Assembly (NCBI GenBank): GCA_024398125.1
Contig: JAKSJO010000023.1
Location: forward strand, 1-38,567
Direction: 5' to 3'
DNA from: Bacteroidales bacterium
GTDB lineage: Bacteria; Bacteroidota; Bacteroidia; Bacteroidales; UBA932
Length of the DNA: 38,567 bases
Part shown: positions 6,910 through 12,115 of the stretch, piece after piece
How positions within the stretch are numbered: the first letter of the stretch is position 1
Layout: each line of letters begins with the position of its first letter
Program-made: the position numbers and the translations under genes
Notes under the pieces: model-generated
Told to the model about the DNA's origin: nothing
Database searches by the model: none
The model's input: only the letters and a program-made list of their open reading frames with translations

Positions 6910-7980
6910 ATGTCAGCACTATCATTCCGTCAGCGAATAGGCCTGTTCGCCTTCAACAAGGTAGTTGAAGAACAGACACGCCAGCATCCTATGAGGCAGC
7001 TCTTCTGGGAATGCACGCTGCGTTGCAATATGAAGTGCCAGCACTGCGGCAGCGACTGCAAGGTATCTGCGATACATCCCGACATGCCTTTCGAAGACTT
7101 CGAAAAAGTGTTGATGCGCATCAAGGAGTCATACGATTCGCATCACATAAGCGTTGTCGTGACCGGTGGCGAGCCTCTTATGAGGCAGGATATCGTAAAG
7201 TGCGGCAGGAGGATGTACGATCTTGAGTTCCCTTGGGGTGTGGTGTCCAACGGTCTATTGATGTCCGACAGAAAGATCGACGAACTGCTTGGTGCCGGAA
7301 TGCGTTCTGCGACCATCAGCCTGGACGGACTCGAAGAAGAACACAACTGGATGAGAGGAGTGCCCGGAGCGTTCAGGAATGCCTCTCACGCGATCGAGAT
7401 ACTGGCAAAGGAACCTTCAATCGGCTTTGATGTGGTGACCTGTGTCAATCAGCGCAACTTCGGCCAGCTTGGTCAGCTCAAGGAATATCTGATCAGCCTG
7501 GGATTGAAGAGATGGAGGATATTCACAGTCTTTCCTGTCGGTCGTGCCGCCAGCAACCCGGAACTTCAGATAAGCGGTGAGCAGTATCGTCAGCTGATGG
7601 ACTTCATCATTGCGACACGCAAGGAGGGACGTATTATCGTCAGTCACGCCTGCGAAGGTTTCCTGGGCCCTTACGAAGGAAAGGTGAGGGATCATCTGTT
7701 CAGCTGTCAGGCTGGTATCAGCGTCGCCGGCGTGAGGATTGACGGCTCGATCTCAGCCTGCACCAGCATACGCGCAAACTACGATCAGGGAAACATCTAT
7801 ACCGATGATATCGTGGATGTTTGGGAGAACCGCTTCGGGAACATGCGCGACAGGACGTGGATGCGCAACGGCGAATGTGCCGATTGCCAGTACTGGAAGT
7901 ACTGTCATGGCAATGGGCTCCATCTCCGGGATGACGACGGAAAGCTTATTCAATGCAACCTGAAAAAACTATCGATATGA
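6910..7980 (+). CDS. Radical SAM/SPASM enzyme of the rSAM/lipoprotein system
   Basis: 356 residues. The radical SAM motif CX3CX2C is at C39, C43 and C46, which hold the SAM-binding 4Fe-4S cluster; GGEP at 86-89 helps bind SAM. A SPASM-type C-terminal region has C266, C284, C323, C326, C332 and C349 (CX2CX5C inside), expected to hold one or two auxiliary 4Fe-4S clusters as in enzymes that modify peptides. Similar enzymes beside a small lipoprotein form a named family pair in Bacteroidetes (as I recall, TIGR04133 with TIGR04134); the reaction is, to my knowledge, unknown. The stop overlaps the next start as ATGA, so it is coupled to the 61-residue lipoprotein. Substrate and chemistry are not known; action on one or both neighbouring lipoproteins is inference. 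Confidence 0.88.
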   Translation: MSALSFRQRIGLFAFNKVVEEQTRQHPMRQLFWECTLRCNMKCQHCGSDCKVSAIHPDMPFEDFEKVLMRIKESYDSHHISVVVTGGEPLMRQDIVKCGRRMYDLEFPWGVVSNGLLMSDRKIDELLGAGMRSATISLDGLEEEHNWMRGVPGAFRNASHAIEILAKEPSIGFDVVTCVNQRNFGQLGQLKEYLISLGLKRWRIFTVFPVGRAASNPELQISGEQYRQLMDFIIATRKEGRIIVSHACEGFLGPYEGKVRDHLFSCQAGISVAGVRIDGSISACTSIRANYDQGNIYTDDIVDVWENRFGNMRDRTWMRNGECADCQYWKYCHGNGLHLRDDDGKLIQCNLKKLSI

Positions 7981-8162
7981 AAAAAGGATTTCTTAGACTC
8001 TTGCTGCTGATCTGTGGACTCAACGTCTTCACAGCATGCTACGGTATGCCTCCGGGCGACTGGGAGGATGAACTTCCTGATCAGGAACAGGAGGGTACCA
8101 AGGCTCCTGCAGACACTCTGGAAGAAGAGGCTGAAACTGAAGATACCACCGTCAATCAGTAA
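7977..8162 (+). CDS. Small acidic lipoprotein coupled to the radical SAM gene
   Basis: 61 residues. Lys-Lys start, hydrophobic core LLLLICGLNVF and lipobox FTAC predict cleavage before C21 and lipid attachment there. The mature peptide starts CYGMPPGDW and continues as a short, highly acidic, unstructured tail rich in Glu, Asp and Thr. ATG 7977 overlaps the stop of the radical SAM gene by 4 bases (ATGA); an upstream in-frame ATG at 7953 would only add eight residues before the signal peptide and is unlikely. The YGMP motif recurs as YGFP in the next lipoprotein. It is a candidate substrate or partner of the radical SAM enzyme; no function can be read from the sequence itself. Confidence 0.72.
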   Translation: MKKGFLRLLLLICGLNVFTACYGMPPGDWEDELPDQEQEGTKAPADTLEEEAETEDTTVNQ

Positions 8163-8180
8163 CCATCATATCTGACGACC

Positions 8181-8606
8181 ATGAAACATACACCTGTAAC
8201 GAAACTCTGCAATTATATTCTTGTGGCACTTGGTTTCACGAGTACGGCTTCGTGCTCGGATGATCCGGGACTCGAAATACCTCAGATGTATGGCTTTCCT
8301 CACGTTGAGTACAGGGTATCGGGTAAGGTTGTTGACCAGGAGTCCAATCCTATTCCAGGCATAAGGATACATGCCTTAGGTAAAAGTGTCAGCAGTTCCT
8401 CGGCAGAGGATGGGTCATTCAAGGTCACTGGATATGGGTCGGAAGCGACGTTGAAGTTTGAAGACATCGACGGAGAGGAAAATGGAGGTGAGTTCGCCTC
8501 AAAGGAGGAAAAGGTCAAGCTCGAGAATGCTGTTTCTCCGGAGGGTTACGTCTATCCTGACGTCTATGTCGCCACCGACGTCACCATCACCCTTGAGAAA
8601 AAGTAG
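8181..8606 (+). CDS. Radical SAM-associated putative lipoprotein
   Basis: 141 residues with a signal peptide and lipobox TASC (lipid on C25). The next residues are S-D-D, which resemble the Bacteroidetes lipoprotein export signal that sends lipoproteins to the cell surface. YGFP is at 37-40, then a beta-sandwich of carboxypeptidase-regulatory type from about 44 to 95 (VSGKVVDQESNPIPGIRI, DGSFKV) and a tail with FEDIDGEENGGEF. The layout (lipobox, YGxP, VxGKVxD, FxDIDGxxNG) is that of the lipoprotein family found beside this radical SAM enzyme in Bacteroidetes. It starts 18 bases after the small lipoprotein and probably shares its transcript. Confidence 0.82.
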   Translation: MKHTPVTKLCNYILVALGFTSTASCSDDPGLEIPQMYGFPHVEYRVSGKVVDQESNPIPGIRIHALGKSVSSSSAEDGSFKVTGYGSEATLKFEDIDGEENGGEFASKEEKVKLENAVSPEGYVYPDVYVATDVTITLEKK

Positions 8607-8878
8607 ATTCCGAGGGAAAAATGATGCGAGGCTGACCAACGGTCCCCCTTTCTATATGAGACTCGACCTTAAGATGACCTTTCTTACGTATTACGGAATA
8701 GTCAAATATCTAACTTTCTATGTCATATTCTCTTGATAATCAGCGTTGCTTCAATAATAAATCTAATCATCGTTACAACTGACGCATTCCTCATATTTGT
8801 GGTAATAAAACACTGCTGTGTTTCAAGTATTTATTATTATAATAGTAAAATCCACACTTAATTATAAAAGCCTTTTCT
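8607..8878. other. AT-rich intergenic region
   Basis: These 272 bases hold no convincing gene. The base composition becomes strongly AT-rich after about 8690. A weak hairpin (AAACAC/GTGTTT, about 8808-8823, 4-nt loop) could end the radical SAM transcript but has no clean T-run. CATATTTG near 8792-8799 is one base off the -7 consensus and could serve the next gene. Nothing stronger is seen. Confidence 0.4.
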
Positions 8879-11050
8879 ATGTGTAGTTTTATTCCTTGTC
8901 GTCGTTGTGTATTGTGGTTGACTATTCTTGTCTACAACTTAATGTTGATCTCTTTGGTGTCTTCTTGTCAATCCATCGAGCCAATCTCTGGTGAAAACGC
9001 CAGTCACTCAGCGTCATATCTGACTGAATCGTCAGGGAAAGAGTTAGATATTCCATTGAAGATTTCCGGCAAGGACATAGAATACACTAAGACTATTTCA
9101 GTCAATAGCGAAAGCTGGCCTACAGTTTCATATTCGTTTGATTCATATGAAACAGGCTTGCTCTATCTATCAATCATTGCAATGCCTGCTGATGATGCTG
9201 CATTTTCCGTATTCGTCAATGGAAAGAACGCCGGTACTATGAGCTCAGAGGGATATGGCTGGCAGATCATGGGACTAGATGGAGATGGGTCGGTATCCCA
9301 GCCAGTTCACATTAGAAGAGGAGCGAATATAATCGAATTTGTTTCCTCTGCATATGAAGTCCCTCAAATCCGCGACATTGTTCTGTCACGAAGGGAAGAT
9401 GATTGTGCATTGTCGCTGGATAATTATCAACGATACTTGCAGAATATCGCTGCGAATCTGTACAATAATGACATTGTGCAGCATGTGTCCTCGCTAAATG
9501 CTACTGGGTATATGTATAATCTGGCATGCCCAGTGTTATACAGTACAACAATGGACATGGTGATTGCAAATAATCGTAGTTTTACCATCAGTGTGTCAGG
9601 ATTCAGTGAACCTGTGGTCGTAGATGTCTATAAGGACGAAGTTTTCACCATATCTTACTATCTGACCCCAACCTCAAATGAAGCTTCAGATAGATTGCCC
9701 AATGGACACTATACAGTACACCTTAGGAAGCCCTATCAGGAAGACAGCCAAATAGGAACAATAACGCTGGAATTCAATGAGTATGTAGAAAGTTATGGTA
9801 ATAGTGTCGCTTCCGGTTATTATATAAAGCCCGAAGATGATGACATTAGGTCCATTTATCCATCTGGTGATGTGAACTATTTTACTTGCAACGAGACCAA
9901 TGGATGTAATCCCGCCCTTTATTTGTGCGAGGGAGACACTGAACCGTATTTGGTGAGATATGCGAATGAAGATTATACCGGCCCTGGTGATTTCAACTGG
10001 GGAGTAAATGCGAGATCTACATTTCCATTTAATAATAGAGTGGACGTTATTCACCTGTCTTCATCTAATCCGAGGAATCCAGAGGGAGAGTGTGATGTCT
10101 ACCAAAGAATGCAGTTTATTCCTATTACTACCCCTCCTACTCCTCTAGAGAATATGCCTATTTACAATTGGAGCCGGTTCAATAGTCAATTCCAAATCCT
10201 GAAGTATAATGATGCTATCGTTACTGATAAAATGTCGTTCGATTACAATTGTTTCAGTTGGGCGGGCGATATTACGATGTATTCTGAGGTGCCGACTTGC
10301 GAATCTTCAAGCTATTACATTGAGGGTGATCCTCTAGGGTCTTTCGACAATTTCTATGAGATGTGTGGATACACAAGAAATGGAGCAAACGCTTCCAATG
10401 CGGCAGTCGCTCTCTGGGCAAACGAAAATGGTATCACTCATGCCTCGATAAGGAACAATAGAATGAGCATCCATCTCCATGGTTATGACTGGGAAAGTAA
10501 AGTGGGCAATTGGGAACGAATCATGCATCCAAGAGACGCCTTGATGTCAACTGCTTATGGCCGGATTGTATACTACTATAGACCAAATCCCAATAGAATC
10601 ACTACCAATCCATCAACAGACAATATAGAACCATTAATATCCTTGGATTATGATACCACTATCATATCCTCCTATATTAATAGCAATATAAGTGAAGATG
10701 TCATAGAGTCTTACCGCGGCCTATATGATAATTGGCTTGAAAGGTGCCATAGACCAGATATCAGTGTCCATAGCAATCCTTTCTTCTATAAGCAGAATGA
10801 GGAATATGAAAAGCTTCATAGTTATTGCACTGGATTAAGAGACACTGTTTTACCTCTCATTTATGAGAAGGTATGTGAAGGGGATTTGCTCACAATGTAT
10901 CTAATGGAAGATCTTATGAACGACGAGGATAAGACCTTCATGGTAGAAATCAAGAAAAAGAATGCCGAGCCAGGTCGACTGCGTGCTCCAATATACAATG
11001 CAATGTGCTATTCAGTCGGGGCCTTTGAGAGAGACTATTTAAAGAAATAA
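8879..11050 (+). CDS. Large lipoprotein with a papain-like C/H domain
   Basis: 723 residues, not a protein I can name. A basic start, a hydrophobic core and lipobox LVSSC predict lipidation at C30. Residues about 85-170 look like a beta jelly-roll of galactose-binding type (FSVFVNGKNAGTM, then RRGANIIEFVS and IRDIVLS). Residues about 455-570 hold a papain-like or NlpC/P60-like pattern: YNCFSWAGD with C458, then GITHASI with H521, HGYDWESKVG and YGRIVYYYRP. This suggests a cysteine peptidase, amidase or transferase fold; the third catalytic residue is not assigned. The last 130 residues are helical and charged. The gene is AT-richer than its neighbours and uses many A/T-ending codons. The lipoprotein gene 27 bases downstream is probably cotranscribed. 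Confidence 0.7.
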   Translation: MCSFIPCRRCVLWLTILVYNLMLISLVSSCQSIEPISGENASHSASYLTESSGKELDIPLKISGKDIEYTKTISVNSESWPTVSYSFDSYETGLLYLSIIAMPADDAAFSVFVNGKNAGTMSSEGYGWQIMGLDGDGSVSQPVHIRRGANIIEFVSSAYEVPQIRDIVLSRREDDCALSLDNYQRYLQNIAANLYNNDIVQHVSSLNATGYMYNLACPVLYSTTMDMVIANNRSFTISVSGFSEPVVVDVYKDEVFTISYYLTPTSNEASDRLPNGHYTVHLRKPYQEDSQIGTITLEFNEYVESYGNSVASGYYIKPEDDDIRSIYPSGDVNYFTCNETNGCNPALYLCEGDTEPYLVRYANEDYTGPGDFNWGVNARSTFPFNNRVDVIHLSSSNPRNPEGECDVYQRMQFIPITTPPTPLENMPIYNWSRFNSQFQILKYNDAIVTDKMSFDYNCFSWAGDITMYSEVPTCESSSYYIEGDPLGSFDNFYEMCGYTRNGANASNAAVALWANENGITHASIRNNRMSIHLHGYDWESKVGNWERIMHPRDALMSTAYGRIVYYYRPNPNRITTNPSTDNIEPLISLDYDTTIISSYINSNISEDVIESYRGLYDNWLERCHRPDISVHSNPFFYKQNEEYEKLHSYCTGLRDTVLPLIYEKVCEGDLLTMYLMEDLMNDEDKTFMVEIKKKNAEPGRLRAPIYNAMCYSVGAFERDYLKK

Positions 11051-11077
11051 AGATAATCTACTACAAACAGCATAATT

Positions 11078-12064
11078 ATGAAGAAAGTTCTAGTAATAGC
11101 TGCGGTTGCTGCATTCATCGCAATACTGGTGTCGGGATGCGGCAAGATAGAGAATGATGAAGTCCATGATTTCAAGATTGTAACAAGGGCCACTGATTAC
11201 TACACGAAGGAGGTTTCGGTCGACACGCTGTATCTAGAAGACATAGACGATTATGTTATGCATTACAGCCCCGAGGAGATTCTTACTTGTGAGCATTTTG
11301 CTGAAATCAGATTCAAGAAAAAAATAACTTTCTATAACAGTATCGATGCAACTTTCGACTTTCTTATAGATGGAGAGAATGTGCTGAAGGCGAGATTTGT
11401 TACTGGTGCTCAAAGTATTCCGGTTTACGATGAGTTTGTCGTGTATTCTTCTTCGGAGTATTCATTGCATCTTTTATATGAATACCAAACTCATCAGTCC
11501 CTCCCGGTAACTTCAATAGATCGGAACGAGTATGAGGCATTAGAAACAATCAATTCCATATTGAACCGGCATATGCGGGAACAGGCTGAACGACAGTTAG
11601 GGAAAAATGTCTGGAAGGGCTTTAAAATCGTTGTTAAAGAATTTGATTATACAGGAGCATTTACCTTCCAGTCTGTTGATAAAGAGGATATCGAATCATT
11701 TATTGTCAAAGTCGAGCCTGAGTATAATGAAAACAATGAACCTTGTGCCCGGATGAATCTCAAGAACGAAATAAAAGACGCGTATAAGAACTCAGTCGCC
11801 AGGTTTGATTTTTATCTGGAAGGAGAGAGGATAATGGCGGCTTACAGGATTATTGGCAATGGGACTATTGATGCCGATATAAGGTGGAGATTTGTTCTCT
11901 TGCAGTCCGAACAGAATAAGCGTAGTTACGATATTGTCTATGAATACTATGGTGAAGAGGTACGTGCAAGGCATGAGATATACGGGATACCATTGAAAGT
12001 AAACAGAATAAAAAACAGCCAGAAACTGGCGCTTGAAACTATCAATGCATACCTGAGGAAGTGA
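11078..12064 (+). CDS. Lipoprotein made of two repeats of one domain
   Basis: 328 residues of unknown function. Signal peptide with lipobox VSGC (lipid on C21). The mature protein looks like an internal duplication: about 32-168 and about 185-328 each begin FKIV, contain an F-D-F strand followed by (I/E)GE and a five-residue-spaced A-R/Y-R strand, then a YEY strand, and each end with ALETIN(S/A) and a Leu. The two halves are diverged but align over their length by eye. Composition is AT-rich like the preceding gene, and it starts 27 bases after it. No catalytic motif is visible; binding or structural work at the envelope is a guess. Confidence 0.7.
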   Translation: MKKVLVIAAVAAFIAILVSGCGKIENDEVHDFKIVTRATDYYTKEVSVDTLYLEDIDDYVMHYSPEEILTCEHFAEIRFKKKITFYNSIDATFDFLIDGENVLKARFVTGAQSIPVYDEFVVYSSSEYSLHLLYEYQTHQSLPVTSIDRNEYEALETINSILNRHMREQAERQLGKNVWKGFKIVVKEFDYTGAFTFQSVDKEDIESFIVKVEPEYNENNEPCARMNLKNEIKDAYKNSVARFDFYLEGERIMAAYRIIGNGTIDADIRWRFVLLQSEQNKRSYDIVYEYYGEEVRARHEIYGIPLKVNRIKNSQKLALETINAYLRK

Positions 12065-12115
12065 ATTTCCTGATTTGCAGGTTCCCAGGTTCCTGCGGAA
12101 AGATGATGAAAAAAA

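Follow-up and report, generated by a model that had tools for sequence, protein, structure and literature searches.

A close point of comparison for the genes described here is the splicease PlpX, a radical S-adenosylmethionine (SAM) enzyme with a SPASM domain, which we take to be a member of family TIGR04103. In PMC10533398, PlpXY is described as acting on X-Tyr-Gly, with MYG and LYG as natural sites and LYGLP as a tag derived from PlpA2. Two further papers place PlpX in IPR026482 and have it working with PlpY, a protein with the recognition element (RRE) of ribosomally synthesized and post-translationally modified peptides (RiPPs) (PMC11002830), and report that splicease precursors can hold several sites (PMC10373908). 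A related SPASM enzyme, MftC (TIGR03962), acts on a tyrosine according to PMC8326336. In this study, a stretch of 38,567 nucleotides from a Bacteroidales bacterium (contig JAKSJO010000023.1, assembly GCA_024398125.1), hereafter the window, was analysed. It contains a radical SAM/SPASM enzyme of family TIGR04133 followed by two lipoproteins with a Tyr-Gly (YG) motif, CYGMP in the small one and MYGFP in the larger one. The two lipoproteins are very likely substrates of the enzyme, and the enzyme probably acts on the Tyr of the motif. Excision of tyramine from the pre-lipoproteins (tyramine splicing) is the likeliest single form of such a Tyr-directed modification, and one that we hold with slightly less than even confidence.

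This locus resembles PlpX/PlpY in its class of enzyme, in its X-Tyr-Gly partners (CYG and MYG in the window) and, at the level of the family, in that one precursor may hold more than one site. It differs in that the putative window substrates are pre-lipoproteins with signal peptides, whereas those of PlpX/PlpY carry Nif11 or nitrile-hydratase leaders; moreover, the window enzyme scores far below the TIGR04103 cut-off, and no conserved PlpY-like gene was found among the representative loci searched. The MftC profile gives the window enzyme 102 bits. MftC acts on a terminal Val-Tyr, whereas in the window family Gly follows the Tyr, which lies close to the N-terminus of longer proteins; because of that position, a reaction at a C-terminal Tyr like that of MftC was rejected.

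As the original prediction for this DNA had guessed, the enzyme and the larger lipoprotein belong to a known family pair, TIGR04133/TIGR04134 (named by NCBI; NCBIfam rSAM_w_lipo and lipo_with_rSAM), scoring 534.6 bits (cut-off 425) and 72.8 bits (cut-off 39.8), respectively. These family names do not cover the X-Tyr-Gly site, the leader-like signal peptide or the minimal lipopeptides described below. Our literature search, which also covered lipoprotein spliceases, found no paper describing the TIGR04133/TIGR04134 pair, a prior description being still possible. A gene pair of undefined chemistry can now be given a testable statement, namely that the Tyr of X-Tyr-Gly in a pre-lipoprotein would be the target and the signal peptide the leader.

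Pairing of the enzyme with Tyr-Gly lipoproteins

The first set of loci comprised 80 loci from a contig scan (metagenome-assembled genomes or uncultured Bacteroidales and relatives) and the window copy, 81 in all. An automatic rule, which asked for a lipoprotein-like open reading frame (ORF) with YG within the first 75 mature residues and at most 1.3 kb from the enzyme, called a YG lipoprotein in 72 of the 81 loci. This number rose to 75 when three loci read by eye were added: L038 and L073, in which the partner is adjacent but its lipobox escaped the rule, and L063, in which it lies some 2 kb upstream. Of the loci without a YG partner, three lie at contig ends (L032, L061, L068) and three have none present (L064, L067, L070). 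Across the 80 scanned loci, YGx(1,2)P, counted in the first 80 mature residues, was found in 41 of 96 rule-based lipoprotein calls near the enzyme (same strand, at most 2.6 kb; a group that includes ordinary neighbours and spurious ORFs), compared with 4 of 123 calls elsewhere. For any YG in the same span, the corresponding counts were 48/96 and 22/123.

A second set was obtained by searching 247 Bacteroidales genomes for TIGR04133 at E up to 1e-80. Matches were found in 55 genomes (68 genes), 13 of which carried two TIGR04133 genes, usually one over the cut-off and one near or under it. The genes of the window and of locus L084 were excluded, leaving 66. This set is largely new sequence, because 62 of the 66 enzymes are less than 60% identical to any first-set enzyme (one is at least 95% identical), although some of its members are closely related to each other. 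Within it, 23 CYGxP partners belong to a distant clade of enzymes that share 38-51% identity with the best-matching of three query enzymes. A YG lipoprotein was called automatically in 56/66 loci and YGx(1,2)P in 53/66; with L155 (EYGTP), L181 (AQYGAP), L190 (AQYGSW), L205 (CYGTP, cut by the contig start) and L220 (KYGAP, KYGSP) added by eye, the count of loci with a YG lipoprotein was 61/66. The remaining loci are cut (L173, L217) or have no partner present (L175, L177, L195).

The original prediction had named lack of YGxP conservation in orthologous loci as one outcome that would refute it. This outcome did not occur, a YG partner being present in 75 of the 81 first-set loci and 61 of the 66 second-set loci. 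Chance sharing of YGxP was rejected, given that the motif is enriched beside the enzyme and recurs in both sets. At the level of genomes, TIGR04134 was found over its cut-off in 33 of the 247, and comparison of the two listings placed 32 of these among the 55 with TIGR04133. The exception, G734 (assembly given as 94% complete), gave no TIGR04133 match at E up to 1e-80. TIGR04134 matches at E up to 0.001 were not specific, because they extended to 75 genomes and many lay in long frames.

Two side observations concern the unpaired cases. Despite having no enzyme match, G734 encodes two YG proteins (L221, L222), with AQYGA and CYGSP. The enzymes of L064, L067 and L070, which adjoin no YG lipoprotein, carry WESTLRC in place of WECTLRC; perhaps their substrates lie elsewhere or their function is altered.

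Motif and signal peptide of the partners

Partner proteins were collected from 76 loci (the 75 of the first set and L084), yielding 84 proteins selected for Cys and YG. Five spurious YG ORF calls (L005, L015, L017, L044, L047) were removed before motifs were counted, and a genuine partner remains in each of those loci. The 84 partners contain 110 YGx(1-4)P motifs and six additional YG copies without Pro; two YG are present in 26 partners and three in 3. The residue X before Tyr was M in 64 motifs, C in 22, E in 11, K in 5, V in 4, L in 2, and D and P in one each, and every one of the 22 Cys residues is the predicted lipid Cys. When the 84 proteins were aligned, no columns but those of Cys, Tyr and Gly reached 90%, and mean column identity was 16%. 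TIGR04134 at E up to 0.01 matched 47 partners and failed to match 37. The small lipoprotein of the window lies outside this family as well (below the cut-off of 39.8), and no NCBIfam or Pfam match to it was found at E up to 1. A motif shuffling test (84/84 against a mean of 4.4) was biased, the proteins having been chosen for YG, and was not relied upon. In the second set, 9 of 73 YG calls had no P within two residues, some of these calls being non-partners.

Because the constant part is X-Tyr-Gly, Tyr and not Pro is the likely target. The original prediction had read the YGxP shared by both lipoproteins as a recognition or modification site, for example on Tyr or Pro. The conserved motif supports a site, and its YG is constant; Pro, however, is usual but not universal, and was rejected as a constant target, since it is absent from some motif copies while Tyr and Gly are constant. 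A Cys before Tyr was rejected as an obligatory cross-link partner, X being also M, E, K, V and others. Lipidation was rejected as essential to the pairing, since the partners of L133, L181 and L190 lack a lipid Cys.

The partners vary greatly in form. That of L133 (L133:4771-5244, in the distant Bacteroidota genome G160) has no lipobox Cys and keeps LGF and EYGVREP, and those of L181, L190 and L221 have a signal-peptidase-I-like end with AQYG and no lipid Cys. Tiny partners have a mature part of 22 residues in L188 (KYGPP) and 23 in L185 (KYGVP). In L174 and L184, several short paralogous genes for YG lipoproteins follow one another beside the enzyme. In L178, L182, L165, L168 and L170, VYGSP, VYGPP or LYGTP is situated deep inside a charged, coiled-coil-like lipoprotein and not N-terminally.

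The signal peptides of the partners are leader-like, strongly so in the first set and more loosely in the second. Any residue followed by Gly and an aliphatic residue, at most 7 residues from Cys, was found in 83/84 first-set partners, compared with 19/149 lipoprotein calls without YG and 7/50 strictly canonical background lipoprotein calls without YG. Among the 22 CYG lipoproteins, mean identity was 63.1% in the signal peptides and 26.2% in the mature part. When YG proteins of 12 loci were compared with a neighbouring lipoprotein, signal peptides were 64.9% identical in the former (mature part 53.3%) and 49.3% in the latter (mature part 58.6%). In five loci, CYG signal peptides were 89.5% identical, and those of a nearby FAD-type lipoprotein only 47.7%, despite a 94.6% identical mature part. 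The CYG clade of the second set has a conserved run of its own, GGLSF...FQA, located farther from Cys by eye. The conserved leader, variable core and fixed residue of a RiPP precursor were all found in the 22 CYG proteins, and less clearly in the other groups. Processing of the partners by signal peptidase II is predicted from the lipobox alone.

Possible tyramine splicing and its alternatives

A constant Tyr and Gly, a variable X, a conserved leader and a variable remainder fit an enzyme that modifies Tyr in pre-lipoproteins, and for this reason such a modification is favoured. The enzyme would meet unlipidated precursors in the cytosol, would recognize the signal peptide, which would double as a RiPP-like leader, and would act on the Tyr of X-Tyr-Gly at or near the mature N-terminus; the modified precursor would then be exported, lipidated and displayed. 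In its fullest form, which we offer only tentatively, the proposal is that the lipoprotein signal peptide serves a splicease-like enzyme as its leader and that this enzyme removes tyramine from X-Tyr-Gly next to the membrane anchor, giving Bacteroidales surface lipoproteins with an alpha-keto-beta-amino acid. In the CYG proteins, among them the small lipoprotein of the window, the lipid Cys would itself become the beta-amino acid, and for the lipopeptides of 22-23 residues display of the reactive group would be the only apparent purpose. That the displayed electrophilic ketoamide serves, for example, as a protease trap is speculative. If tyramine splicing is true, gut bacteria would export proteins with beta-amino acids and anchor them at their surface, RiPP leaders would include signal peptides, and animal guts would commonly hold surface ketoamides, which might act as protease traps or be used as labelling handles. 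If another bond is formed, a new Tyr modification would be at hand. Because the enzyme scores below the splicease cut-offs and has no PlpY-like neighbour in the representative loci, it is not filed as a splicease. From its sequence it may work like one, and the chemistry, like the modification of the motif as such, is put forward as a proposal.

By residue sharing and one tree, the enzyme appears to be tied to the splicease-type families. Thirteen residues (E34, L37, G47, S48, T177, L187, L194, W202, F232, I233, G250, E256 and S286) are shared with TIGR04103/TIGR03913-type enzymes, being kept in 15 TIGR04133 enzymes, in at least 60% of 11 such relatives and in at most 30% of 10 other radical SAM/SPASM enzymes (four AhbD-like). 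In a tree with outgroups, TIGR04133 joins the TIGR04103/TIGR03913-type relatives with support of 99/97, and the AhbD-like and four other sequences fall outside this group; two other trees, one with very long branches (L121) and one of three groups without root placement, do not bear on the kinship. In the reverse direction, TIGR04133 was the next-best profile after TIGR04103/TIGR03913 for four of five such enzymes and ranked fourth for one.

TIGR03913 enzymes, known with GDL-motif/DUF1843 peptides, appear to be close relatives of the window enzyme. In four genomes of one genus (near-identical relatives; L086, L092, L093, L094), TIGR03913/TIGR04103-like enzymes adjoin peptides starting with LYGV, PYGV or MYGV; two tested YG peptides, both of L086, match DUF1843. 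This system differs from that of the window in that no signal peptide was seen in the peptides and the enzyme, of about 475 aa, has a C-terminal extension. These four enzymes, from what we infer to be class Flavobacteriia or a sister, are possibly spliceases.

A number of observations weigh against splicing. Raw profile scores favour heme-synthesis families: the window enzyme scored 131.9 bits with TIGR04053, 126.5 with AhbD and 122.7 with NirJ2, and lower with the splicease-type profiles TIGR04103 (106.4; cut-off 725) and TIGR03913 (102; cut-off 591.75), and the same order was seen in the best E-values across 45 TIGR04133 members. The kinship tree has long branches and few outgroups; forcing TIGR04133 together with the AhbD-like rows costs 15.35 log-likelihood and is rejected no more strongly than at p-AU (approximately unbiased test) 0.038. 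BLAST of ORFs of at least 55 aa in 19 representative loci, drawn from 56 with flanks, revealed no conserved PlpY-like neighbour, a search that could miss an RRE shorter than 55 aa or a very divergent one; no RRE-specific profile was run. No short YG peptide was found beside the other TIGR04103-like enzymes inspected (L125-L129, L131). Among the partners, eight motif copies read MYS and not MYG. The constancy of Cys, Tyr and Gly in the alignment is partly by construction, the 84 proteins having been chosen for Cys and YG; what is informative is that no other residue is constant. In the second set, a slightly wider signal-peptide pattern was found in only 44/64, and three loci of each set have the enzyme without a partner.

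Splicing also does not account for a frequent aromatic residue downstream of the motif. YGx(1,2)P followed by two to four residues and Y, F or W was found in 116 of 149 partners, and 33 had no such aromatic; the aromatic fraction was 0.22 at P+3 and 0.51 at P+4, compared with 0.045-0.073 in the background. Among short partners, a downstream aromatic was present in 41 first motifs, where shuffled tails gave an expectation of 11.4 and a maximum of 21 (300 shuffles). The aromatic may serve recognition or, in long proteins, mark where a folded domain begins. It also speaks for the main rival to splicing, in which the enzyme joins the motif Tyr to a neighbour such as Pro, X or the downstream aromatic by a C-C, C-O or C-S cross-link, bonds that SPASM enzymes commonly form. 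We consider this cross-link less likely than splicing. Only Tyr and Gly are constant, so that about a fifth of partners lack a fixed second residue for the bond; X is highly variable, as is the residue after Gly, which is itself Gly in some cases, and the aromatic in long TIGR04134 partners may simply begin a domain. In L018 and L020, the partners lack an aromatic shortly after the motif.

Alternatively, the enzyme might modify the lipoproteins elsewhere, with YG serving only to dock the enzyme or a later factor. The leader-like constancy of the signal peptide would suit this, as it indicates that recognition elements are under selection. Docking is nonetheless improbable, as a single short protein can hold up to three YG, nothing else is common to the partners outside the signal peptide, and no other residue in the 84-partner alignment has the constancy expected of a target. 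Least probable is that the pairing reflects a shared lipoprotein function (YG in surface binding) while the enzyme makes something else, such as a cofactor in the manner of AhbD or NirJ: the AhbD, NirJ and TIGR04053 profiles do outscore the peptide-maturase profiles, but no cofactor-pathway gene is conserved near the enzyme in the 19 representative loci, partners with a mature part of 22-23 residues could do little beyond carrying the motif, and the enzyme accompanies TIGR04134 in 32 of 33 genomes. Apart from the enzyme, the family most often met in those 19 loci was a YG lipoprotein group (5/19), followed by CysS (4/19).

The window locus and its variation

The features of the window locus are listed in Table 1. 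Radical_SAM and SPASM were the only Pfam domains over cut-off in the enzyme. Cys 39, 43, 46, 266, 284, 323, 326, 332 and 349, which include those of CxxxCxxC and of SPASM, were invariant in an alignment of 45 enzymes (44 of the first set and that of the window; L077 was left out). The small lipoprotein reads MKKGFLRLLLLICGLNVFTA-CYGMP, with YGMP at residues 22-25 directly after Cys21, and across the predicted lipidation boundary MKKGFLRLLLLICGLNVFTA-CYGMPPGDWEDELPDQ...; its length is counted from the ATG at 7977, and the ORF list gives a longer frame from 7953. In the larger lipoprotein, the lipobox Cys is residue 25 and YGFP occupies residues 37-40, in the context QMYGFP. The residue numbers originally given for both motifs were correct. 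CarbopepD_reg_2 matched the larger lipoprotein at 27.2 bits, under its cut-off of 32.2.

Table 1. Positions of the enzyme, the two lipoproteins and their motifs in the window
Feature	Positions	Strand	Basis
TIGR04133 radical SAM/SPASM enzyme, 356 aa, proposed modifying enzyme	6910-7980	+	profile match, open frame
CNMKCQHC, CxxxCxxC radical SAM cluster motif, residues 39-46	7024-7047	+	translation; Cys invariant in homologues
Small lipoprotein precursor, 61 aa, proposed substrate	7977-8162	+	open frame; ATG overlaps enzyme stop (ATGA)
Signal peptide of small lipoprotein, CGLNVFTA before Cys21, proposed leader	7977-8036	+	CYG signal-peptide conservation
CYGMP motif of small lipoprotein, Cys21 the predicted lipidation site	8037-8051	+	sequence
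Larger lipoprotein, TIGR04134, 141 aa, proposed substrate	8181-8606	+	profile match; weak carboxypeptidase-regulatory-like domain
MYGFP motif of larger lipoprotein, residues 36-40; 11 residues past lipid Cys25 (8253-8255)	8286-8300	+	

The two lipoproteins differ in how they recur among related loci. A segment of about 4 kb (window 8129-12105) is absent from the close relative L001, in which the flanks align at 92% and 95%, and the larger lipoprotein, missing in L001, was rejected as a fixed component of the locus. This strain-variable segment also encodes two lipoprotein-like proteins, one of 723 aa with DUF7689 (8879-11050) and one at 11078-12064. Relatives of the small lipoprotein occur in L001-L003, where the small CYG protein is kept, and upstream of the enzyme in other loci. 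L004 has instead a MYG-bearing relative of the larger lipoprotein, located upstream.

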